Origin: Flavobacteriales bacterium
GTDB taxonomy: Bacteria > Bacteroidota > Bacteroidia > Flavobacteriales_D > Crocinitomicaceae
Assembly: GCA_015665275.1 (NCBI GenBank)
Contig: JADFAL010000044.1
Location: forward strand, 1 to 57,813
Direction: 5' to 3'
Length of the DNA stretch: 57,813 nucleotides
A program made the position numbers and the translations under genes. The notes beneath the pieces were generated by a model. That model did no database searches. It worked only from the letters and a program-made list of their open reading frames with translations, and was not told the origin of the DNA. Of the stretch, positions 11,896 to 37,636 are shown piece after piece (position 1 is the first letter of the stretch; each line of letters opens with the position of its first letter).

Positions 11896-14028
11896 TCAGT
11901 CCTCAATATACTGTATCACAAATTGATCTACAACAGTTGTGATACATTTAGAGTTTCCAACCGTTTGCAAATGCACACGAGTTTGTCCTTCTAAAGCTTT
12001 GTTGCTCAATTGTGATCCGTCAGTACCGTACAAATATACATTATTCTCCAATGCATCAATAACACAAATGTAGGTTTTACCTGATTCTAGCGTTGTAATG
12101 TACAGGTCGCCTACATCGCTAAACGGGACGGTGATTTGGCCAAACCCTATGCCTTCTTCATTGAGCAACGAGAGCGTGTTTCCGGTTTGAATTGCCATGG
12201 CATTTTCACTGATGTACAGGAGTTTACCTTCAGGGTATCGATCAATGTTATCTTGCCTTCCTTTTTGATCCATGCGCACCAAGGCATTATCTGTAATCGA
12301 GAATCTATAGAGTTGATTGGGCACTTTTACCGATTTCGATCCTGGAAGAATTTCGAAAGATCGAAGCGATCGTCGTTTTTCCAGTTCAAACATGGTGAAT
12401 TGTACAGTATTCGAAGCTAATCCAGCAAACAGTCGTTTCTGACTTACCCAAATATCAATGGGCTTTTGGATGGGATGATCTACTTTGTAAACGTCGAGTT
12501 CTCGTCCTTTGGCATCAAATTGAATGAGTTTATTGTTCTCTGTTCCAACAAGGAAATAACTGCGCTCGCGCCAGCGGTAAAACTTGGTTGGTGCCGTAAT
12601 CTCACTTTCAATGTTCACGGGAAATCCGGTGGCATCTTTTCCTTTAAGATCCCACAAATAGAGTTGATTGCCAGTATTCAGATGTACGTACATCTCACCA
12701 TTGTAATGCAGGTCGATAAGGGAAATGGTACCTACGATCTTGTCATCAATCTTTTTCTTCCAAGCGAGTTTTTTGTTGGTATAACAAGCAATTTCTCCTT
12801 GGGTGCCCAGAACTGCCAAATTTCCTTGTCCCGGAAGAACAACAAAGTCCTTAATGTCGAAGCCGCAACTTAAGTTCACCGAGGCACTCAGTTCTTTGGA
12901 AGCTTCAGGAACTGGAATTCCTGTGTATGTTTCCATAAGTCGACCTTGATAGACGGATTTCGAAAAACTCTGATCTTCTCCAACAAACCTTTCAGATACA
13001 GCTTTTGGTAATTCTCCGAAATAGCGGTAACGAACATTTGTACTTGAAGCAATCGTAATGCCGAGCTTATAGTCTGCAAGCATTTTATCGCACGCCGATT
13101 CACTTTCGGAGAAAACGACAAGATCTTCGAGATACTTTACAACATAAGACCCTCCTTGCGACGGAAAGTCTTTCGTTAAACGATTCTCGAATCGGTTGCT
13201 ATCCAAGGTCTGATTAATGTCATTCAAGATGAGGATGGGGTTTTGACCGCCTAGGTAATCAGACACGATCACCGTTTCACCATCGTAGTCAGCGACAGCA
13301 AAACCGTTAAGTAGCCACTGATGCATGGGGCCTGTAGCAAATTCCTGATCGAGCGTTGCGTAGTAATCACGTTCGTAGAAATGATAGTTGGAAATGTTTC
13401 GGGAGACCAATCCAGCAAAGATGTTCTCGTCTTTGATTTGTGTTCCTTGTTCGATGTTCGCGTTTCTAGTCACGAAGTTGACACGTCCGTTTGCTTTAAA
13501 ATAAATGTCTGTAGTGTTCTTGATTCCCTTGTCTGCGAAGGTTATCAAACTGGCAGAAGCTTTTTTATCAATAAGGAAATGTGTTGATTCATCTCCTTCA
13601 TGAAGCAAATTACCTTTGGAAAGGTAGAGGCTGTTTTTGTAGAATTTGCCTGAATATCCTGCAACGCTCACTTCTGAACCATCGATCTTTACCGACTTAT
13701 CATCAAAGAGTTTTTTGATGGATTGTGAATTCCAATTTACCTCGGAAAACAGCAGTAGATGTGCACGTTTTTGACTGAAATATCCTTTCTGATAGCTGCT
13801 GTCATTAAGACTTTTGATTAAATCTAGCGTAGGTGCCTCTTGAAACGACTCAATGGCATTGAAATTCACTTCATCCGAACGCAGGACGACCAAAAGTTGA
13901 CCATCGGATTCAGAGAACACAATTTCAGGAACGTAATTGTTCTTGGCACTAGCAATGTCCCATGCATAATAGGCGATCCAGGCTAAGCTAGCAAGGAATA
14001 ATATACCGAGAAGTACACGTTTGAACAT
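11896..14028 (-). CDS. Membrane-anchored propeller-like protein
   Basis: 710 residues with one N-terminal hydrophobic helix (residues 4-26, RVLLGILFLASLAWIAYYAW) that is probably an uncleaved anchor. The first half (about 30-380) resembles the DUF3352 type of large exported protein. The second half reads as PQQ/WD-like beta-propeller blades, with patterns such as LYLWDLKGKDATGFPV and NVYLYGTDGSQ. I do not recognise a named family. It is in the same operon as the OmpA-family protein, 16 bases apart, so the two may act together at the envelope (inference). Confidence 0.75.
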   Translation of the reverse strand: MFKRVLLGILFLASLAWIAYYAWDIASAKNNYVPEIVFSESDGQLLVVLRSDEVNFNAIESFQEAPTLDLIKSLNDSSYQKGYFSQKRAHLLLFSEVNWNSQSIKKLFDDKSVKIDGSEVSVAGYSGKFYKNSLYLSKGNLLHEGDESTHFLIDKKASASLITFADKGIKNTTDIYFKANGRVNFVTRNANIEQGTQIKDENIFAGLVSRNISNYHFYERDYYATLDQEFATGPMHQWLLNGFAVADYDGETVIVSDYLGGQNPILILNDINQTLDSNRFENRLTKDFPSQGGSYVVKYLEDLVVFSESESACDKMLADYKLGITIASSTNVRYRYFGELPKAVSERFVGEDQSFSKSVYQGRLMETYTGIPVPEASKELSASVNLSCGFDIKDFVVLPGQGNLAVLGTQGEIACYTNKKLAWKKKIDDKIVGTISLIDLHYNGEMYVHLNTGNQLYLWDLKGKDATGFPVNIESEITAPTKFYRWRERSYFLVGTENNKLIQFDAKGRELDVYKVDHPIQKPIDIWVSQKRLFAGLASNTVQFTMFELEKRRSLRSFEILPGSKSVKVPNQLYRFSITDNALVRMDQKGRQDNIDRYPEGKLLYISENAMAIQTGNTLSLLNEEGIGFGQITVPFSDVGDLYITTLESGKTYICVIDALENNVYLYGTDGSQLSNKALEGQTRVHLQTVGNSKCITTVVDQFVIQYIED

Positions 14029-14044
14029 CCGTATCCATTTTTAT

Positions 14045-14052
14045 CAAAAGTA
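14045..14052 (-). promoter_or_regulatory. -7 promoter box of the propeller/OmpA operon
   Basis: On the minus strand this reads TACTTTTG, matching TAnnTTTG, 17 bases before the ATG at 14028. No clear TTTG -33 element is present at the expected distance. Confidence 0.4.
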
Positions 14053-14113
14053 GGAAGAAGGACGGCTGGTATTCATGGAACGTTCAGTAGAAATGAACAG
14101 GTGTCTGTTTACT

Positions 14114-14719
14114 CTAAAAGAGTTCCAATTGTTCGGGTGGCAAGAGCGTGAAGGATTGTCGATGATATTTACAGTCACCGTGCTTTTGAACTCCCAATCG
14201 ATGCTTTTTGGTTGGATACCCTTTGTTGCTAGCCCAATCGTACATTGGGAATTCTTCTGCGATTTTTTCCATGTAATCATCGCGATAGGTTTTCGCGAGA
14301 ATTGAAGCCGCAGCAATTGAGAGGTATTTTCCATCTCCTTTGATAATGCAAGCGTGCGGAAATTTAGCATGTGGATTGAAACGATTTCCATCGATGAGCA
14401 AGAATTCTGGTGCTTGTTGCAGGGCATCTACCGCTTTATGCATCGCAAGAAAACTGGCATTCAAAATGTTGATTTCATCAATTTCATTCGGGTAAACGAA
14501 TGCTACGGCATGCGCAAGTGACTGCTCTTCAATTATGGGCCGGAGTGCTTTTCGTTTCGCTTCTGTAAGTTTTTTGGAATCGTTTAAAATCTCGTTCTGA
14601 AAGTCGTCTGGGAGAATTACGGCTGCAGCAACTACGGGGCCTGCAAGGCAACCTCGGCCTGCTTCATCACAGCCCGCTTCAATCTGTTCTTTACGGTAAT
14701 GGAGCAAAAGATTACTCAT
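14114..14719 (-). CDS. rnhB: Ribonuclease HII
   Basis: Cleaves RNA in RNA/DNA hybrids and single ribonucleotides in DNA. The active-site signature GCDEAGRG (residues 16-23, D18 and E19) is followed by [13 protein letters not shown] further acidic position lies in LLIDGNRF, and the conserved [14 protein letters not shown] segment is present. Length of 201 residues is normal. An overlapping frame running to 14044 is a shadow. It is divergent from the small exported protein gene at 14812. Confidence 0.96.
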
Positions 14720-14733
14720 GCGAACAAATTTGG

Positions 14734-14741
14734 CAAAAATA
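14734..14741 (-). promoter_or_regulatory. -7 promoter box of rnhB
   Basis: On the minus strand this reads TATTTTTG (TAnnTTTG). A GTTG lies 22 bases further upstream and could serve as a weak -33 element. It is 14 bases before the rnhB ATG, implying a very short leader. Confidence 0.4.
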
Positions 14742-14811
14742 TTGTAGATTCGTTTACCTGAAACAACGTTTCGAACGAATTATACGTCTAATAGTAAAAG
14801 AAGAAGATAAG

Positions 14812-15186
14812 ATGAAAAAATTGATTTCTACGTTGGTATTTGTACTTGGAGTAGTTGCTTTGAGTTTTGCCCAAGACGCAAAGAATACAGCAATTTCACA
14901 AGGCGCTAAGGAATTGGCAACTAGTAAAGTGAACGGTACATATGTGTATACTTTACCTGAAGGAACGACTCAAGAAGAAGTGACTAAGGTGGCTGCATAT
15001 TACCCGGATTATTTCACCGTGTCATTCGATGCATCATCTCGTGAGGCTTCAGTACAGATTACTGGTGAAACAGCACCAAGTTCTCAAGTTATGCTTCGTT
15101 TCCTTTCTGGATGCGGCGTAATGTATGTTGATGTAGACGGAGACAGTCACCAATTGAATTTATTCTACGCAGAATTCGTAAAATAA
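14812..15186 (+). CDS. Small exported protein of unknown function
   Basis: 124 residues with a signal peptide ending near LSFAQ. The mature part of about 100 residues alternates strands and helices (VYTLPEGTTQEEVTKVAAYYP, then YFTVSFDASSREASVQI), somewhat like a ferredoxin-like or heavy-metal-associated fold. The metal-binding CxxC is absent and only one cysteine is present. No family recognised. It is a single-gene unit ended by the terminator at 15207-15239. Confidence 0.75.
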   Translation: MKKLISTLVFVLGVVALSFAQDAKNTAISQGAKELATSKVNGTYVYTLPEGTTQEEVTKVAAYYPDYFTVSFDASSREASVQITGETAPSSQVMLRFLSGCGVMYVDVDGDSHQLNLFYAEFVK

Positions 15187-15206
15187 AATTCTTAAAAATA
15201 TGTTAT

Positions 15207-15239
15207 ACCCCGACGCTTAGAGGTGTTTGGGGTTTTTTT
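15207..15239 (+). terminator. Terminator after the 14812 gene
   Basis: Stem starting ACCCCGA and closing with GGGGT, with one bulge and the loop TTAGAG, followed by seven T residues. It lies 20 bases after the stop codon. A TTTG inside the distal arm and TATTTTTG at 15245-15252 could form a promoter for the next gene, although the 15-base spacer is short. Confidence 0.75.
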
Positions 15240-15283
15240 ATGTGTATTTTTGTCAAAGAAATACGAATTCTAATTAATCGACT

Positions 15284-15769
15284 ATGAAGAAATATATGAT
15301 TGCATTTGCAGTTGCAGCTATTGCGATTGCTTGTTCAGCACCAGAAACAAATCAAGAAGGGAAAGAAAAATTGGGAAAAAGCTACGGTCCTGTTAAAGTT
15401 GACGTAAGCAAAGCAATTACTGTAAAGGAAATGTTGAAAGACTTTGAGGGAAAAGAAGGCGAAGTTGAATATACTTTTGAAGCCGACATCTCAGAGGTTT
15501 GTTCCAAAGCGGGATGCTGGATCAATGTTGACAAAGGAAACGGGGATATGTTTATGGTTCGTTTCAAGGATCATTTTACGATTCCACCGAAGACTGATGT
15601 TGGAACTGGAGCTTACTTGCATGGAGTAGCATTCATGGATACAATTTCCGTGGCTGATTTGCAGCACTTCGCTGAGGATGCGGGTAAAAGTCAAGAAGAA
15701 ATTGACATGATTACAGAAGCTGAGTTTGAATTGAACTTCACTGCTGACGGAATTACGTTGAAGAAGTAA
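15284..15769 (+). CDS. DUF4920-family lipoprotein
   Basis: 161 residues with a lipoprotein signal; the lipobox is IAIAC with the cysteine at residue 17. The mature part matches the DUF4920 pattern: GKSYGPV near the start, FEADISEVCSKAGCWINV in the middle with the two cysteines of CSKAGCW, then FKDHFTIP and GAYLHGVAF. Function of the family is unknown; the CxxxGCW motif suggests metal binding or redox chemistry (inference). The gene is followed directly by a strong terminator. Confidence 0.88.
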   Translation: MKKYMIAFAVAAIAIACSAPETNQEGKEKLGKSYGPVKVDVSKAITVKEMLKDFEGKEGEVEYTFEADISEVCSKAGCWINVDKGNGDMFMVRFKDHFTIPPKTDVGTGAYLHGVAFMDTISVADLQHFAEDAGKSQEEIDMITEAEFELNFTADGITLKK

Positions 15770-15786
15770 CTATTCATATAGAAATT

Positions 15787-15822
15787 AAAAACCCTGACGT
15801 CATTTGATGTCAGGGTTTTTTT
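15787..15822. terminator. Bidirectional terminator
   Basis: Arms AAAACCCTGAC and GTCAGGGTTTTT around a short loop, with A-rich and T-rich flanks. It sits between the convergent DUF4920 gene and the GH72-like gene and can serve both. Confidence 0.9.
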
Positions 15823-15835
15823 ATGTGTTGATTGG

Positions 15836-16432
15836 TCAGGTGGTTATTACTTTACAAGCGCCTTCCCAATTTTCATTGTTGATGACCGCCCCATCGCTTA
15901 AGGTCTCAACATCTACAGCGGCTAATGTGCATGAGTTTTCCCAAGTTGTGTGTCCGGGCCCTGGTTCTCTCTGAATGAATAGTTCTAGGTTGTCCGTTGT
16001 GTTAATATTCAAGGTAGTTGGTGTTTTTACGCCATTGCTTGGTGCTCCTGTTATTTTTCCCATTATTGCGTTTCCTTGAACTGCTACTAAGTTGGCTGTT
16101 GAAAGATTTTCCATCGTGATACTCGTAGTTGGTGGAGAGAAACTCGCTAACAAGGCCGGGTCGCATGTACTTGGGTTGGGTGCCGATGCTGGAGGGTTTT
16201 CCGGAATTGGTAATGATGCCAGTCCACTAACATGTTGAAATTGTGCCTCAAGTGCAGACACTCCTCCCTTTGCTGTTTTTCTGAAGTTTCCAGATTGGTC
16301 TTCATTTTGAATGTACAAGCCTAAATTGTTCTTTTCATTGAAAAACGAAAATGCGATTTGACCAGAGAAATTTTCATAAAGCTTCTTCTCTGTATACATT
16401 TGAGTAATGATGGCCCAGTCTCGCTTCCATGT
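15836..16432 (-). pseudogene. C-terminal continuation of the GH72-like gene after an in-frame TAG
   Basis: This frame is the same as that of the upstream GH72-like gene; only the TAG at 16433-16435 separates them. After the stop, eleven codons (TWKRDWAIITQ) lead into MYTEKKLYENFSGQIAFSFF and NEKNNLGLY. These match the end of the fungal Gas1/Gel catalytic barrel, where a segment of the type FSGGIAYMYFEEENNYGL follows the nucleophile. About 130 residues of unrecognised Ser/Thr/Pro-rich and beta-like sequence follow (CDPALLASFSPPTT to the end at CKVITT). An internal ATG at 16399 exists, but a separate protein starting there would begin inside a barrel helix, so an independent gene is unlikely. 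Confidence 0.75.
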
Positions 16433-17257
16433 CTAAACGGCAGAAATTGCTCCAATTTCAGAAAAAATGATGGGTATTGGCATACCACTCCATTTTTTTA
16501 CAATGTTATCGTAACACGTTAATGGGTCTTTTTTGGGGTCTTCCGCTGTCACGTAGCGATATGTGTTTAGCCCAATAAAGTCTGCACGCTCTGCGGCATT
16601 TGTTCCACCAGCATAGTATTCTGCGCAAATGTCAGTTCCAATCAATCCAGCCGGAACAACCGAAGGTTGAAAAACATCTCGGATGGCAACTCCTACTGGA
16701 ATCGCGCGATACCCTTTTGAAGTAATGTAAGTTTTCAAATCTCTAATGAAAGATTTGAGGGCGGCAGCGATATTCTTCTGTATTTGAACGGTTTCTGCTA
16801 CACTATTGTTCATGGAATAGATATAGCCTGGGTCTTCTGTTTCGTTTCCTACAGAAAATGCCAAAGTATTTGGATATTTCTGAAACAAATCAATCACTTG
16901 AATCCCTCGCATGTATAACTGATAGTTGTAGTCTGGGGTTAAGGATTTAATGCAGATTTCTTTGTTTTCTACTTCTAGCATCACATAAATTCCATTGTCT
17001 TCTAATAATTTCATGGTTTTATCGTGCGATGCGGTAAGGTCAATTTGATACACACGAATCATGTTGATGTTCAAGTCCTTTAAATAAGGAAGCAGTACGG
17101 TATTCGTGTAGTTATAGTTTGTGTCCGATAGGGGGTAATCGTAAAAGCTAATGCCTTTGCCGGGTTGCAGACAGACACCGTTGGCCATGAAGCGGTCTCT
17201 GCTTGAAAGCTTTAGTGCCTTTCCATCTACTGATACTGTTGGGAATGTTGTACTCAT
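16433..17257 (-). CDS. GH72-like beta-1,3-glucanosyltransferase catalytic domain, interrupted
   Basis: 274 residues that track the fungal Gas1/Gel/Phr family (GH72). They read FMANGVCLQPGKG, then LPYLKDLNINMIRVYQID, LEDNGIYVMLEV, the acid/base motif GNE (E139), YRAIPVGVA, ERADFIGLNTYRY and the nucleophile motif FSEIG (E267). The reading frame meets TAG at codon 275, then continues open for 198 codons with the remaining GH72 sequence. GH72 enzymes cut and rejoin beta-1,3-glucan chains. No signal peptide is visible, unlike fungal members. The truncated product lacks the last barrel elements and would probably be inactive unless the stop is read through. It has terminators on both sides, so it is a single-gene unit. 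Confidence 0.8.
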   Translation of the reverse strand: MSTTFPTVSVDGKALKLSSRDRFMANGVCLQPGKGISFYDYPLSDTNYNYTNTVLLPYLKDLNINMIRVYQIDLTASHDKTMKLLEDNGIYVMLEVENKEICIKSLTPDYNYQLYMRGIQVIDLFQKYPNTLAFSVGNETEDPGYIYSMNNSVAETVQIQKNIAAALKSFIRDLKTYITSKGYRAIPVGVAIRDVFQPSVVPAGLIGTDICAEYYAGGTNAAERADFIGLNTYRYVTAEDPKKDPLTCYDNIVKKWSGMPIPIIFSEIGAISAV

Positions 17258-17480
17258 AGTTTTTTGTTTTATGTAGTTTATAATCAGAATGATTGTGCAT
17301 TCGAATCTTTCTTATTTGCTAAAGTCTTCAATTTTGAGTCTCAGAAAGGTCTGATTGACATGAAATGGAGTTTTTTTGTTACGAAAAGGTTTGTTTAAGA
17401 TTTTACTATGTGAATTATCTTCGCTTCGAGTTCCAATTAATTTCGCTGTGGTTCTGTAAAGACATTGGTTATGGTCCATA
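17258..17480. other. Upstream region of the GH72-like gene
   Basis: This noncoding stretch lies between the GH72-like gene and the terminator of the acyl-CoA dehydrogenase gene. I see no ORF of note, no TAnnTTTG box in either useful orientation, and no repeat. If the GH72-like gene has its own promoter it must be here, but I cannot point to it. Confidence 0.4.
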
Positions 17481-17483
17481 AAA

Positions 17484-17507
17484 AAAGGCCGTCTTACGAC
17501 GACCTTT
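17484..17507 (-). terminator. Terminator after the acyl-CoA dehydrogenase gene
   Basis: Arms AAAGGCCGTC and GACGACCTTT around the loop TTAC with one mismatch. On the minus strand the hairpin runs into seven T residues. It lies about 20 bases beyond the stop codon at 17529. Confidence 0.9.
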
Positions 17508-17528
17508 CAATATATTCATTAGGCAATT

Positions 17529-19316
17529 TTAATAACAGTACCCATTCGCTTCAATTAGCTTTTGAGCAATAACTTGACGTGCTTCTTTTACGTTAAACTG
17601 CTGTGTTTTCGTGAAGCGTTTCAGCCCCATCAACATCATGCGCAGTTCATCCCCTTCTGCAAATGAATTAACAGCATCTTTACCGGCTTTATTGATTTTG
17701 TCCGCTGTGTCATAAAACAACGTTCGAACAATTGCGATTTGTTCCTTGCATGCGTCCTCTCCTTGCGCGTCAATCATTTGTTGAACGCGTAAAAGAGTAG
17801 ATTCTGCGATGTAAGTGTCGATGGACATGTCTGCAATGTTCATCAATACTTCCTGTTCTTTTGCGAGGGATTGCATCAGTTTTTGAACAGCTGATCCAGC
17901 AACCATTAGAATCGATTTCTTGAAACCTTCCAATGCATCGAACTCTGCTCCTAAAGGCCCCTCGGTAGGATCTTTCATTTCAGGGATGCTTACCAATTCG
18001 TTCGCAACGCTCATTGCAGGTCCCATTAAATCTAGTTCGCCTTTTAATGCGCGTTTCAAGACCATATCGACCGTGAGCAAACGGTTAATTTCATTGGTGC
18101 CTTCGAAAATTCGATTGATTCGAGCGTCGCGATAAGCGCGTTCAACAGTTGATTCTGCTGAATAACCCATTCCACCAAAAATTTGAACTGCTTCGTCGGT
18201 AACGTAATCCAATGCTTCTGATCCAGCAACTTTCAGAATAGCACATTCAGGTGCGAATTGCTCAATTCCCTTCAAAGTGGCTTCGCCTTTGTCTAAGCCT
18301 TGATCCATGTACCCTTGAATGGCATCGTCGATATTTTGTCCAGCACGATAGGTAGCTGATTCAACGGCATACGTGCGAATAACTTGCTCTGCCAATTTGT
18401 AGCGGATGGCTCCGTATTTTGATATTGAGCGACCGAATTGCTCACGTTCGTTAGCGTATTTTACTGAGTCGCGAACTGCTTCTTTTGCTCCTCCCATAAC
18501 ACCCGCTGCCAATTTGATTCGGCCAATATTCAGAATATTTAAAGCGATTTTAAATCCGTTTTCACGCTCGGAAAGCATGTTTTCAACCGGAACTTTTACG
18601 TTGTTGAAGAACACCTGGCGGGTAGATGATCCTTTGATCCCCATTTTCTTTTCTTCAGGATTCGTAGTGATGCCCTCTGTGTCAGCTTCTACTAAAAATG
18701 CGGTTAACTTTTCGTCGTCATCAATTTTAGCAAATACCGTTAATAGGTTCGCAAATCCAGCGTTGGTAATCCACATTTTTTGTCCGTTCAATGTGTAATG
18801 CGTACCATCTTCGGACAGGACAGCTTTGGTTTTACCAGAATTTGCATCAGAACCGGAACCGGGTTCAGTAAGACAGTATGCCGCTTTCCATTCACCAGAC
18901 GCTAATTTTGGAATGTATTTTTGACGTTGCTCGTCATTTCCATAATAGAGGAGTGGAAGTGTTCCAATTCCTGTATGAGCGCCGTACGCAACGGAGAAAG
19001 AATATCCAGCTCCTAGAGACTCTGTCGCCAGTAAGCTAGTTTTGAAATCAACACCCAAACCTCCCAAATCTTCAGGGACAGACATTCCTAGAAGTCCAAG
19101 TTCACCAGCTTTCTCCATTAAAGAGGGCATTAAACCTTCTTCCATGTTATCGATGCGTTCCAAATGTGGTTTTACTTCAGCGTCAATAAAGTCCTGACAC
19201 ATTTGTTGGATCATGCGTTGCTCTTCCGTAAAGTTCTCGGCAGTGAAAATATCTGATGGAGCTGTATCTCTTACGATAAACTCGCCTCCTTTAATTGGTT
19301 TTTTCTGTGATTCCAT
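17529..19316 (-). CDS. Acyl-CoA dehydrogenase
   Basis: 595 residues. The FAD-dependent first step of beta-oxidation: acyl-CoA to trans-2-enoyl-CoA. Visible are AAYCLTEPGSGSDA (flavin-binding signature), MWITNAGFANLLTVFAK, QVFGG-type VQIFGGMGYS, and the FEGTNEINR motif near residue 416 that often carries the catalytic glutamate of very-long-chain type enzymes. A C-terminal extension of about 160 helical residues after the canonical domain is typical of the long bacterial form. A palindromic site (19367-19378) and a -7 like box TATCTTAG (19340-19347) lie upstream, so it has its own promoter although it belongs to the fatty-acid locus. Confidence 0.95.
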   Translation of the reverse strand: MESQKKPIKGGEFIVRDTAPSDIFTAENFTEEQRMIQQMCQDFIDAEVKPHLERIDNMEEGLMPSLMEKAGELGLLGMSVPEDLGGLGVDFKTSLLATESLGAGYSFSVAYGAHTGIGTLPLLYYGNDEQRQKYIPKLASGEWKAAYCLTEPGSGSDANSGKTKAVLSEDGTHYTLNGQKMWITNAGFANLLTVFAKIDDDEKLTAFLVEADTEGITTNPEEKKMGIKGSSTRQVFFNNVKVPVENMLSERENGFKIALNILNIGRIKLAAGVMGGAKEAVRDSVKYANEREQFGRSISKYGAIRYKLAEQVIRTYAVESATYRAGQNIDDAIQGYMDQGLDKGEATLKGIEQFAPECAILKVAGSEALDYVTDEAVQIFGGMGYSAESTVERAYRDARINRIFEGTNEINRLLTVDMVLKRALKGELDLMGPAMSVANELVSIPEMKDPTEGPLGAEFDALEGFKKSILMVAGSAVQKLMQSLAKEQEVLMNIADMSIDTYIAESTLLRVQQMIDAQGEDACKEQIAIVRTLFYDTADKINKAGKDAVNSFAEGDELRMMLMGLKRFTKTQQFNVKEARQVIAQKLIEANGYCY

Positions 19317-19366
19317 ATCTTAAATAAATTAGCATATGACTAAGATAATAAAACTTAACACTGCAT

Positions 19367-19378
19367 TATGCATGCATA
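19367..19378. promoter_or_regulatory. Candidate MarR operator upstream of the acyl-CoA dehydrogenase gene
   Basis: TATGCATGCATA is a perfect 12-base palindrome. It sits where the -33 element would be, 19 bases upstream of a -7-like TATCTTAG and 51 bases before the start codon. The same element with one mismatched pair occurs upstream of the marR gene (25271-25282). Assignment to that regulator is inference. Confidence 0.5.
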
Positions 19379-19392
19379 GCTATATTTTTGTT

Positions 19393-20691
19393 TTATTTTG
19401 CTTTTTTTATAACATATCGCTTGCCCTTAATTCGTTTCATGTGAATATTGTTTAAGGTTGATTTGAGTTTATTAGATCGAATCGCTGCGTAGGCCATGCG
19501 GTCAAGAAGATCGATTTTGCCAATTTCGTCTGATTTCAGTTGTCCCTGTTGGGATAAGAAACCGACAATATCCAGCTTCCGAAGCTTGTCTTTCTTTCCC
19601 GCACTGAAGTATAGGGTCGTCCATTCCGAGGGTTTGTTTATCACGTTTGGATTCGGAACAAACTCTTTTTTCGGTAAGGATAAGTATTCGGGAAGATCCT
19701 GTGAGGATTTGTAGAGGAGGTATGCATTTCCGTCTTTATCTGCTCTTGCTGTTCGTCCATTTCGATGGATAAATGCTGTTTCGCTATCCGGAAATTGATA
19801 GTGAATTACATGGCTCACACCATCAATGTCCAATCCTCTTGAGCCAAGATCAGTGCAAATCAACGCATGAACACTTCGGTTTCGAAACTTAATCAATGCC
19901 ATTTCTCGCTCTGGCTGTTCCATTCCGCCATGGTAGGCGATGCAGGTGATTCCTTCGTCTGTTAGTCGTTCGGTAACATCTTCCACAACTTCGCGATAAT
20001 TACAGAACACGACAGATGGCTCGTCTTGAAATTGACCAAGGCAATCTGTTAAGCTCTTGAATGTATTCTCCGAGTTAACTTTCCAGAGTTGCAATCGCGA
20101 TGACTGCTCTGTTGATCTAAAATCGAGGGTGTTGCTTTTCGACGCTTTCCATGATTGAGGAACGTAGTCGATTTCAGTAGCTGAGACGAGAATTGATTTT
20201 ATCTCCTTTGGAAGATACTCGCGAATGGATTGCATCTCTTTCTCAAAACCGAACTCCAGACATTTATCGAATTCATCAATTACGGCAATTCCGCAGCCTG
20301 AAAGATTTACGTGTTCTCGTTCCAGGTGATCAAGCAGGCGGCCAGGGGTCGCAATAATAACATTCGGTTGTTGGTTCAGTTCATTTCGTTCTGTTTTTAC
20401 TGGGTGTCCGCCGTAACAAGTCGTAAACGAAATGGAAGATTTTAGCGATTTAAAAACGTCTGCTGTTTGCAACGCTAATTCTCTGGTAGGAGAGAGGATG
20501 ACAATTTGAGCTCCCTTTTTCGATCCATCAACCAACTGGATTGCGCCTAATAGAAATGCCAATGTTTTGCCAGATCCTGTTTGCGCTAACAATTGCACAT
20601 GATTATGCTGTTGGAAGGCTTCAATAGTTGCTTCCTGCAGCGGAAGTAACTTACTGTGACCGCTGTTTTTCAGGAGTTGTTCTATTTTCAT
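19393..20691 (-). CDS. DEAD-box RNA helicase, DbpA-like
   Basis: 432 residues from the start at 20691 (MKIEQLLKNSG), chosen because its ATG overlaps the thiolase stop as TAATG. Helicase motifs in order: Q-motif region LLPLQEATI, motif I AQTGSGKT, PTRELA, TPGRLL, motif II as DEFD instead of DEAD, SAT, and HRNGRTAR. The C-terminal 75 residues (TTLYFSAGKKDKLRKLDIVGFL and onward) match the DbpA RNA-binding domain that targets 23S rRNA. It probably acts in ribosome assembly. Its place inside the fatty-acid operon is unexpected. Confidence 0.88.
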   Translation of the reverse strand: MKIEQLLKNSGHSKLLPLQEATIEAFQQHNHVQLLAQTGSGKTLAFLLGAIQLVDGSKKGAQIVILSPTRELALQTADVFKSLKSSISFTTCYGGHPVKTERNELNQQPNVIIATPGRLLDHLEREHVNLSGCGIAVIDEFDKCLEFGFEKEMQSIREYLPKEIKSILVSATEIDYVPQSWKASKSNTLDFRSTEQSSRLQLWKVNSENTFKSLTDCLGQFQDEPSVVFCNYREVVEDVTERLTDEGITCIAYHGGMEQPEREMALIKFRNRSVHALICTDLGSRGLDIDGVSHVIHYQFPDSETAFIHRNGRTARADKDGNAYLLYKSSQDLPEYLSLPKKEFVPNPNVINKPSEWTTLYFSAGKKDKLRKLDIVGFLSQQGQLKSDEIGKIDLLDRMAYAAIRSNKLKSTLNNIHMKRIKGKRYVIKKAK

Positions 20692-34292: not shown

Positions 34293-35963
34293 TTAATCCT
34301 CTTCCATCAATTTCAACACAGTAAATAACTGCCAATAAAAATTGATACTGTGTTTCGATTTCAACGCTTTTAGATTTAGTACTTCTTTGTGAGAAGCAAT
34401 CAATTGCTGTAATTCCTGTTCAAAGCCAAACGATTCCATGCCCGTATTCTTTCTGGCTTCCAGAATTCTTTCGGGTAAAAACGCCTTCATTTTTTGGCGA
34501 TCGTGAATCCGTTTTACTTGCTTCTGGTTGGCTACTTCTTCCTTCCAGTTTGGATTAATAACCTCGTTAAGATTTCCTGGGTATTGCTGGTATAAGTAAT
34601 GGTAAAGTCCGCCGTATTCTTTGGCGTTTTGAGGAATGCTTAAGCACGTTTCAATTAACTTTGGATTGTAGAATGGAGTCGTACTCCAAACATATTGTCG
34701 GTTCCGATCTTCACCTTCAAACGCCCAGTTAATTCCAGCTTCTCGGATCAGATAGTAGACGTATTTATCATCAAAGGAAGCGAATGGATATGAATCCAAA
34801 TGACCAATAACGTTTTCCTCGAGCTCCATGGTTGATATGCCTACTAGTTTCGCAGCAGTTTCCAATGAGCAAAACGCATTGTAACGCATGATGTAACGCA
34901 TAAGTCCTTTCATCGAACGAATCGATTTCAATGCGGACAGGTCTACGAAAAATTTACCGCCACCATCTCCAGTGATTGTTGTGAGTTCTCGCTCTGCATG
35001 CATGCGATAGTACGGAAGTACATAACTCATTGAAAGGTAATTGATTCCTTGTTTGAACTGAAGCAATTCCTCTGCATCGGGCAATTCAGGAGGGTGTATT
35101 TCGAACACCTCGTGTTGCTTTAGATCAAGTCGTTTTACAATGTCTTCAGAAGAGGAATCATCTAAATAATCGGTTCCATCTTTACGGCTATATGTTATAA
35201 AAGGAATATCCTGCTCCAGTTTTTTTACGCCCGCGGCGATCAATCGAGAATCCAGTCCTCCGCTTAGCGATATAGACGGATTTTTTAACTGCTCCAATCG
35301 ACTTTTAAGAGAAGCGTCAAATTGCTTTTGAATAGAAGGTGCCACTTCTTCGAGCGTTTTATTACCTCCTACTGATTCCAGATAGAAGTACTCGTACAAG
35401 GAGATGTGTCCATCTCCGTGAATGTGCAAAATACTGCGCGGTGGCATACGTTGAACGTTCTTCCAAATGGTATTCGTTCCCAAATCGGTGCCCAATAATA
35501 GATTCATCCCCAAATGAAGCGGATGGTATTCCGGTTGGGCAAAATGCGTTATACAAGAGATGTTTCTGCTCGCAATGAATTGATCACCTTGTTGCCAATA
35601 ATATACAGGTAATCGTCCCCACGAATCGTTCACGATGTACATAGATTTGGAACTTCGATCGCGGTGCATGAATACGAACTCGCCATCCCAGTATCGGATT
35701 TTCTCAATGACTTCGTCAAAATGATATGCATCCAGCAGTCGCGTCAACTCTTTGAAATGCTCTTTCGGATCGAGGTTGTACACCATTCCTTCAAAGTAAG
35801 AGCCGTACTTCTCGATGAATTCGTGCGGATAGTTTTTAGGATACTGACCCGTAAACTCAAAATAGTCATTCGCAGACCATTCCGTCCGTTCCAAGCCATC
35901 GTTGAGATAGGGAACTTTTTGAGGGTGTTGTAATCCGGAAGAGCGTAGGTTGAATCCTGGCAT
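34293..35963 (-). CDS. Asparagine-synthetase-like protein lacking the glutaminase cysteine
   Basis: 556 residues from the start at 35963 (MPGFNLRSS). A longer frame to 35984 begins MCC, but that region coincides with the -7 box TACATTTG, so it is probably untranscribed. The N-terminal part resembles the glutaminase domain of AsnB (DGEFVFMHRD, PVYYWQQGDQFIASR), but the Cys2 nucleophile is absent in the chosen start. The C-terminal synthetase domain has the pyrophosphatase loop SLSGGLDSRL. It may use ammonia or an amine donor to form an amide, as such variants do in glycan and peptide biosynthesis (inference). The downstream neighbour on this strand is none. Confidence 0.8.
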   Translation of the reverse strand: MPGFNLRSSGLQHPQKVPYLNDGLERTEWSANDYFEFTGQYPKNYPHEFIEKYGSYFEGMVYNLDPKEHFKELTRLLDAYHFDEVIEKIRYWDGEFVFMHRDRSSKSMYIVNDSWGRLPVYYWQQGDQFIASRNISCITHFAQPEYHPLHLGMNLLLGTDLGTNTIWKNVQRMPPRSILHIHGDGHISLYEYFYLESVGGNKTLEEVAPSIQKQFDASLKSRLEQLKNPSISLSGGLDSRLIAAGVKKLEQDIPFITYSRKDGTDYLDDSSSEDIVKRLDLKQHEVFEIHPPELPDAEELLQFKQGINYLSMSYVLPYYRMHAERELTTITGDGGGKFFVDLSALKSIRSMKGLMRYIMRYNAFCSLETAAKLVGISTMELEENVIGHLDSYPFASFDDKYVYYLIREAGINWAFEGEDRNRQYVWSTTPFYNPKLIETCLSIPQNAKEYGGLYHYLYQQYPGNLNEVINPNWKEEVANQKQVKRIHDRQKMKAFLPERILEARKNTGMESFGFEQELQQLIASHKEVLNLKALKSKHSINFYWQLFTVLKLMEED

Positions 35964-35981
35964 AAATGATACGTAACAGCA

Positions 35982-35989
35982 CAAATGTA
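35982..35989 (-). promoter_or_regulatory. -7 promoter box of the asparagine-synthetase-like gene
   Basis: On the minus strand this reads TACATTTG (TAnnTTTG), with the ATG at 35963 about 19 bases downstream. It decides the start codon of that gene. Confidence 0.5.
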
Positions 35990-35999
35990 CAAAATGCCG

Positions 36000-37166
36000 C
36001 TATTCCGGAATCATGCTTTCGACGGTCCAGTGGAACTTATCTTGAAGTAAAGGCAAATCTTCGTTAGAAACACGCTTGCATCGCCAAAGCAATTGGTTGC
36101 CTTCTACAAAAAGCCATTCCTTGTCTTGTCGTATCGCTCGGATGTGAGTCCCATTGGAAAACTTGAATTGGTTCGACCCTTGCGGAATTCTAATCGGATA
36201 ACTTTGAAACTGTCCATCAAATGTCTCCATTACTAAAAAACCGAGCGGATGAAAGTGTAATCGTTTGTATTCTTGGTTCGGAATGCCATCCGGACATTTT
36301 TCCGTTTGTACAATGGTAAAAGATTGGTGGTTGATAGCTTTTGGGTTGAACGCGTGTTCGGTTCTATTGATTACAGGCCAGAAGCATTCTATAAGAATCA
36401 AGGTAACTGCGAATCCTTTCAAGGCTCTGTAAAGCATTGGTTTGATTTCAACTGAGTCTGATTCAATTGCCAGGATTGACGAACTAGATAACAGTTGGAA
36501 TAATGGTTTTGCTGAAGGAGCAATGATGAACATCGAGCCGAGTAGTAGTCCAAACGAAAGCAGTTTCACGGTAATGTCAAATCCGATATTTAGTGCAAGG
36601 ACGTTCGCGAATACACCTAGCGCTAAATACCCACCAATGAATCGCGTTTTCTTGAAGAAAAGAAAGGTTCCTGCAAGAATTTCAATGAATCCCATGAAAC
36701 CGGCATAGGCCTTGCTCGACCCCATTAAGCTCCAGAAAAGAATGTCTTTGTCGAGACTGCCAATTTCGGCGTGAAGAATATTTGGCGGAGGCACAGGAAA
36801 TTGCAGTCGCGTCCATTTCTCAATCCCATATTTCAACAAGAAAAAAGCAAGGGTAAATGTGATAACCGCTCTGATCCATGGGAGTGCGAGGTGTGCTTTT
36901 TTAAGCCGAACCAATACCAGAGCTATAATAAGTGCCAGTATTCCAAGTAGTGCAGATTGTAAATACAAATGGACGCTATCCGAAAAACTATGCGTACTGG
37001 AAAGTGTCTCTGCACTATTAGCGCTCAGGCTTTTGGTGAACGGAAGAAATAGCTTCGTAATGTGCGTGCCAATTTCTGGAACGATGTCCAATGGAAACGG
37101 CAAAAAAAGAAAAAACAGGCACAACCAAGTGCCTGCAATTAGTGGTATCGGTCTTATTTTTTCCAA
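36000..37166 (-). CDS. DoxX-like multi-pass membrane protein
   Basis: About 388 residues if translation starts at a TTG at 37166 (MEKIRPIPLIAGTW), which avoids a 76-base overlap with the preceding gene; an ATG at 37229 would add 21 residues. At least six hydrophobic helices are visible, with a block like DoxX (GSSKAYAGFMGFIEILAGTFLFF, then YLALGVFANVLALNIGFDI). A soluble C-terminal domain of about 130 residues follows (YKRLHFHPLGFLVMETFDG and onward). Role unknown. It is 15 bases upstream of the asparagine-synthetase-like gene promoter region. Confidence 0.65.
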   Translation of the reverse strand: MEKIRPIPLIAGTWLCLFFLFLPFPLDIVPEIGTHITKLFLPFTKSLSANSAETLSSTHSFSDSVHLYLQSALLGILALIIALVLVRLKKAHLALPWIRAVITFTLAFFLLKYGIEKWTRLQFPVPPPNILHAEIGSLDKDILFWSLMGSSKAYAGFMGFIEILAGTFLFFKKTRFIGGYLALGVFANVLALNIGFDITVKLLSFGLLLGSMFIIAPSAKPLFQLLSSSSILAIESDSVEIKPMLYRALKGFAVTLILIECFWPVINRTEHAFNPKAINHQSFTIVQTEKCPDGIPNQEYKRLHFHPLGFLVMETFDGQFQSYPIRIPQGSNQFKFSNGTHIRAIRQDKEWLFVEGNQLLWRCKRVSNEDLPLLQDKFHWTVESMIPE

Positions 37167-37636
37167 GAAAGTTGCGGTTGAAATATGTATGTTCCCAAGC
37201 CTATTAAAATCAATGGAAGTAACAACCATCGAACTTTACTTTTCTTGCGCTTCTTAAAGTAAGAATTGCTTGTTGATTTAAGGCTGGAACTCTCTTTTTC
37301 GAAACCGATAAGGGTCACTTCGTGATCGTAAAGTTTCTGAATTTTCTTTGGATCGTAATTTACATCATTGTACTGCCAATGGTTGCAAATGGTGTCCTTG
37401 AAGTAGAATGCATTTGTCGATCCCCAGTCTTGTTCTTTCACGTAATGAATCACACAAGTTTCGTTGATTCGTTCAATGGTGTCGATAGATCGATCTGGCG
37501 CCGGGATTCCAAATTTGTCTTCAGACAAACTCAAATCTTTCACATTACCATGATGACTTTTTAATCGGATTACGGAAGTCTGGGCAAATATGGGTAATCC
37601 GCATAAAATGATCAGTGTAGCAAGAATTGTTTTCAT
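37154..37636 (-). CDS. Exported protein with a C-terminal membrane segment
   Basis: 160 residues with a signal peptide ending near IFAQ, a soluble region of about 100 residues, and a C-terminal hydrophobic helix (VRWLLLPLILIGLGTYIF) preceded by the basic stretch KKRKKSK. It is probably anchored in the inner membrane with the soluble domain in the periplasm. No family recognised. Its end overlaps the start region of the DoxX-like gene. Confidence 0.7.
   Translation of the reverse strand: MKTILATLIILCGLPIFAQTSVIRLKSHHGNVKDLSLSEDKFGIPAPDRSIDTIERINETCVIHYVKEQDWGSTNAFYFKDTICNHWQYNDVNYDPKKIQKLYDHEVTLIGFEKESSSLKSTSNSYFKKRKKSKVRWLLLPLILIGLGTYIFQPQLSWKK

Follow-up and report, generated by a model that had tools for sequence, protein, structure and literature searches.

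The window analysed here, a stretch of 57,813 nucleotides, carries on its minus strand a GH72-like gene whose neighbours are a DUF4920 gene on one side and a gene for an acyl-CoA dehydrogenase on the other. The frame runs from 17257 to 15836 and comprises 474 codons, of which 472 are sense codons, one is an internal TAG at codon 275 (16433..16435, minus strand), and the last is a terminal TAA. The N-terminal part (16433..17257, minus strand) opens with an ATG and encodes 274 residues before the TAG, while the continuation (15836..16432, minus strand) encodes a further 198 residues before the TAA and is identified by homology to intact relatives, which extends across the stop, as the end of the GH72 domain followed by a C-terminal module. 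Across 15836-17257 only 2 stops fall in the GH72 frame, against 20 to 37 in each of the other five, so that its continuity is not due to chance. These counts bear out the initial annotation, which had described two halves lying in one frame with a single in-frame TAG and no other disruption. The earliest codon from which translation could restart after the TAG, as read from the sequence, is the ATG of residue 287 (16397..16399, minus strand).

One GH72 gene interrupted by one TAG

The GH72 family, which comprises the Gas/Gel/Phr beta-1,3-glucanosyltransferases, is best known from fungi. The N-terminal part of the window gene matches the family profile PF03198 over profile positions 9-249 (E 1.5e-41, 143.1 bits), far above the curated cut-off of 25.9 by which membership is judged, and the C-terminal part gives a weak match to positions 255-297 (E 0.016) that falls under that cut-off. 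In a six-frame profile search the two appear as a single match to positions 6-297 of 314, with one TAG inside it and a score of 167.6 bits. A phmmer search of solved structures returned five distinct sequences, all of them 1,3-beta-glucanosyltransferases, including 8pe1/8pe2 and 2w62 (GAS2). Both catalytic glutamates of the family (GNE, SE) are present and aligned with those of relatives, at the residue numbers originally assigned to them: Glu139 (codon 16841..16843, minus strand), the putative acid/base, lies in a GNE motif that aligns with SVGNEVE of intact relatives, and Glu267 (codon 16457..16459, minus strand), the putative nucleophile, lies in an FSEIG motif that aligns with their TETG/TESG. 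These roles are presumed by analogy with GH72. Judging from its family, the protein, if intact, would act on beta-1,3-glucan as a GH72-type enzyme. An AlphaFold2 model of the read-through protein, built on an alignment of 3 rows, is too poor to use (mean pLDDT 47.3).

In its profile match and its two glutamate motifs the window gene thus resembles GH72, while it differs from known members in being bacterial, in lacking a visible signal peptide, in carrying a C-terminal module that has no name, and in being broken by a stop. No signal peptide is visible in the window protein, the frame upstream of the ATG stopping at the 19th codon, and none is seen by eye in the three unbroken relatives described below (L109, L133, and L134). 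The TAG lies eight codons past Glu267, in a loop of variable length that leads from the nucleophile strand to an RxW motif and precedes the last part of the GH72 domain; by eye, the distance from the nucleophile glutamate to the RxW tryptophan is 11 residues in L109, 12 in L134, 14 in L133, and 15 in the window. A small duplication was considered as the source of the stop, the window loop being 1, 3, or 4 residues longer than those of its relatives, and on inspection by eye was not supported, because the length of this loop varies anyway. As translated, the product does not hold a complete GH72 domain, since the TAG ends the N-terminal part at about profile position 249 of 314. The domain is complete only if the TAG is read through, which makes this a broken GH72 gene rather than a working GH72 enzyme.

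The sequence after the TAG had initially been read as the expected end of the barrel. This holds insofar as the weak match to positions 255-297 and the longer match through the stop both place the end of the domain there, but the protein continues for more than 130 residues past the GH72 match, and the barrel is therefore not all of it. Alignment with relatives places in this region one copy of a C-terminal module (approximately 15839..16129, minus strand) that belongs to no Pfam family; the stretch containing it has no Pfam match and the whole C-terminal part has no NCBIfam match. The module measures about 85-100 residues, is present in one copy in the window and in more in relatives, and is repeated at the C-termini of the bacterial GH72 proteins L109, L133, and L134. 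It is also found at the N-terminus of another protein, encoded on a plasmid of Undibacterium (L111:2983-3942) beside phospholipase D-like and DUF2278 genes.

Relatives and genomic site

A first scan of genome contigs with the N-terminal part of the window protein found no relative. Unbroken homologues were found in three other genomes. The metagenome-assembled genome Fluviicola sp. B02.bin.61 (G246; JARWZO010000005.1, L109/L041), which belongs to the same family as the window, encodes one of 686 amino acids in a single frame, 34% identical to the window protein over 488 aligned columns that span the stop position. It shares with the window gene this alignment and the C-terminal module, and differs in being unbroken and longer, in having three module copies by eye, and in occupying another genomic site. 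A class-wide alignment search of 395 genomes, drawn evenly from a larger group, found the gene in three: the window's own, G908 (an open frame of 594 amino acids), and G841 (606 amino acids), the latter two without a stop and nearly full length, with G246 lying outside these three. All three of the full-length unbroken relatives found (L109, L133, and L134) thus cover the stop position in one uninterrupted frame, as had been asked of an alignment to GH72 and to relatives, and the window locus is accordingly one interrupted gene rather than two; two separate genes are rejected as the ancestral state on the same ground.

Halves in separate genes, which would have spoken against a single gene, are met only on plasmid pTs485 of Candidatus Thiodictyon syntrophicum (NZ_CP020372.1, L043:3902-4898), where a GH72 homologue is annotated as two hypothetical proteins. 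That copy has lost about 146 residues to an internal deletion and has undergone a frame change, which accounts for the two coding sequences and means that it, too, is broken; it carries the same C-terminal module. Among the relatives found it has the N-terminal part most like that of the window (49.6% identity over residues 8-137, 131 columns), with 35% identity over the C-terminal part. The remnant resembles the window gene in being homologous and broken, and is unlike it in the manner of the break and in an N-terminus that by eye looks like a signal peptide. A further GH72 gene start, 60% identical to the Fluviicola one, is clipped by a contig end (L110:2644-3021, JABXIV010000003.1); the contig, 3 kb long, was binned as Alphaproteobacteria, which could reflect either transfer or mis-binning.

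Within the genus the gene is present in one of 34 genomes, the window's own, with no match in any of the other 33 (of the 34, 22 reach 90% completeness or more with contamination of no more than 5%). Matches above the Pfam cut-off were found in 2 of 240 genomes of the family, in 3 of 399 of the order (one marginal; 8 of 399 at E 0.001), and in 11 of 395 of the phylum (30 of 395 at E 0.001), the best of these besides the window being a partial match of 32.8 bits. We take the weak matches in the order and phylum to be related glycosidases.

The DUF4920 and acyl-CoA dehydrogenase genes that flank the GH72 gene in the window are adjacent without it in relatives. The DUF4920 protein has a match in 28 genomes of the genus, the window's own included, and at the five relatives inspected the site is empty in three and holds another gene in two. 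The alignable flanks stand about 120 to 165 bases apart in G044, G020, and G046, compared with 1.7 to 1.9 kb in the window, where the extra stretch relative to G020 covers approximately 15826..17481 (blastn of window 13000-20000 against L104-L108). In G010 and G004 the site holds a gene of 373 residues (L106:2879-4000 and L107:2575-3696), with a PqiA domain in the G010 one, and across the relatives this interval is a site of gene turnover. Both flanks align to relatives from the genus (DNA identity about 77-80% for the closest two), which rules out a foreign contig or a binning chimera. Judged from these alignments, the GH72 gene is an isolated extra gene within a native contig, and it is simpler to suppose that it was gained here than that it was lost elsewhere. 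It also looks dispensable, as it has no match in the rest of the genus, its site is empty or otherwise filled, and the plasmid copy is broken as well.

A mobile source was sought among phages and plasmids. Phage records gave no match to the N-terminal part of the window protein or to the Fluviicola protein, and pattern scans of viral contigs gave none. Plasmids yielded the Thiodictyon gene, the Undibacterium module, and a weak match in Novosphingobium (E 0.1) that lies under a TonB-receptor gene and is taken for chance, and on this basis we reject a phage or plasmid source for the window gene. The Bacteroidota-type promoter motif occurs 8 times in the window against a shuffle mean of 4.55 (at least 8 in 7 of 100 shuffles), with no match just upstream of the GH72 gene.

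TAG as a terminator

If the TAG were decoded as sense throughout the genome, its use elsewhere should betray this. The initial annotation had pointed to other genes in the window that end in TAG and had considered genome-wide recoding unlikely, and both points stand: the FadB-like gene ends in TAG, as do 96 of the 357 long ORFs in a sample of 456,368 bases made up of the window and 20 further stretches (TAA 183, TGA 78). Release factor RF1 (prfA) is present, with a match above its cut-off. The suppressor tRNA with a CUA anticodon that had been proposed as a check did not turn up: ARAGORN found none at the loci of 29 tRNA matches (150 of 228 first-look candidates scored), and none occurs in the 20 sampled stretches. 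A pattern joining a CUA anticodon loop to a T-loop occurs at 18 places compared with 26 for a backwards control, and ARAGORN calls a tRNA that overlaps the pattern at two of the 18, each a tRNA-Arg (tct), and none with a CUA anticodon. With RF1 present, TAG a common terminator, and no CUA tRNA among the candidates scored, genome-wide recoding of TAG is rejected.

Apart from the GH72 gene, the sample has 11 ORFs that end in TAG and continue beyond it in frame for at least 60 open codons. For 8 of these pairs both sides were scanned with Pfam, and in none does a domain cross the TAG. In three the domain upstream of the TAG differs from the one downstream (SelR/PMSR, acyltransferase/GatC, and ABC/SufBD); a fourth (L122), by eye a sigma factor and the next gene, looks like two genes, as do the L123 and L131 pairs, whose downstream parts by eye have signal-peptide-like starts; and the pair at 34296-37229 of the window has a Pfam domain on its downstream side only. 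At L115:13927-15432 (G000 contig C4) two in-frame stretches are separated by one TAG, neither with a Pfam match and both with low coding scores. In the other 3 of the 11, the open stretch past the TAG is short (61-65 codons) and its coding score is low. One or two pairs aside, nothing sets TAG apart in this sample.

State and origin of the interrupted gene

The sequence beyond the stop shows no sign of excess decay. At alignment positions invariant in the other three rows, the window keeps 24 of 40 after the stop and 77 of 132 before it, whereas the other rows, each left out in turn, keep 75-80% after and 86-91% before; on either side of the stop no row is more distant than the window's. The ratio of identity after the stop to identity before it is 0.68, 0.68, and 0.71 for pairs that include the window, against 0.54, 0.62, and 0.69 for pairs of intact genes. 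Per codon, the codon log-odds come to 0.138 ahead of the stop and 0.125 past it, compared with a gene median of 0.161 in the sample and values of -0.33 to 0.02 for other frames of the two parts, and the post-stop part looks like normal coding sequence. With relatives this distant the comparisons resolve poorly, and a change made only a short while ago would leave no trace in them. Were the gene unconstrained and substitution uniform, the chance of meeting no further stop would fall to 5% at about 62 substitutions, or 0.044 per site. This age bound is looser with a transition bias of 2 to 4, under which the share of changes that create a stop drops from 4.7% to 4.1-3.4%.

Three causes had been offered for the TAG at the outset, namely a recent nonsense change, a sequencing error, and programmed read-through; the evidence favours the nonsense change, leaves a lesser share to error, and lends programmed read-through no support. 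The likelihoods given here are our judgement rather than computed values. The locus is probably a recent nonsense allele of a dispensable, sporadically transferred GH72 gene. Its main rival, which we consider appreciably less likely, is that the TAG stems from faulty assembly or sequencing, or from a minority-strain allele caught in the consensus, the gene being intact in the organism. A single lesion in 472 codons with none to follow is also what an error would give, as is the absence of decay past the TAG, and the genome is fragmented (115 contigs, 96% complete) and has yielded no second GH72 copy for comparison; against error, the sequence around the TAG by eye holds no homopolymer or repeat that would favour one. 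That the locus makes two useful products, a truncated barrel and a C-terminal protein restarted at the ATG at 16399, is very unlikely: the ATG comes 12 codons past the stop, and the module does start a different protein on the Undibacterium plasmid, but the stop cuts within the GH72 domain, a restarted product would separate the end of the domain from the rest, and each of the three unbroken relatives has a single frame.

Programmed or suppressed read-through of the TAG to give a full-length enzyme is likewise very unlikely. The frame and its coding signal do go on past the stop, and among the other TAG pairs the one at L115 is not demonstrably two genes and the one at 34296-37229 only weakly so, yet the release factor, the lack of a CUA tRNA among the candidates scored, the frequency of TAG as a terminator, and the lack of any domain over the stop in the eight pairs scanned all speak against it, as do the sense codons that relatives have in this variable loop. 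A related proposal, in which the organism tolerates the TAG and makes use of it, with read-through or restart at a low level yielding a truncated form without the module alongside a full-length or module-bearing form, is also highly improbable; if true, it would make a stop within a variable loop the regulator of a horizontally spread bacterial GH72 enzyme that lacks a signal peptide.

The nonsense allele would have arisen as follows. A lineage of the Fluviicola family may have acquired a rare bacterial gene for a GH72-type glucanosyltransferase between its DUF4920 and acyl-CoA dehydrogenase genes, and a later nonsense change would have placed a TAG at codon 275. Translation would then end past the nucleophile strand, ahead of both the closing part of the barrel and the C-terminal module, and with these missing the product is probably inactive. 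Since the frame past the stop is not visibly decayed, this allele is likely to be young or polymorphic. Pseudogenes that owe their state to one nonsense change are an ordinary kind in bacteria, and the window gene resembles them in having one stop in a gene that is otherwise open, apparently dispensable, and sporadic; only the rarity of its family sets it apart.

As a decoding event the locus therefore carries little weight, the evidence pointing to an ordinary lost or mis-assembled gene. No account of a bacterial GH72 enzyme was found by title, and titles are no proof that none is in print. A useful by-product of the analysis is a small clade of GH72 genes scattered over bacteria, found in Bacteroidota, on the Thiodictyon plasmid, and in an alphaproteobacterial metagenome-assembled genome, whose C-terminal module is unnamed in Pfam. 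This clade and its module are the sole mildly new part of the finding, and bacterial GH72 copies seem to be gained and lost easily.
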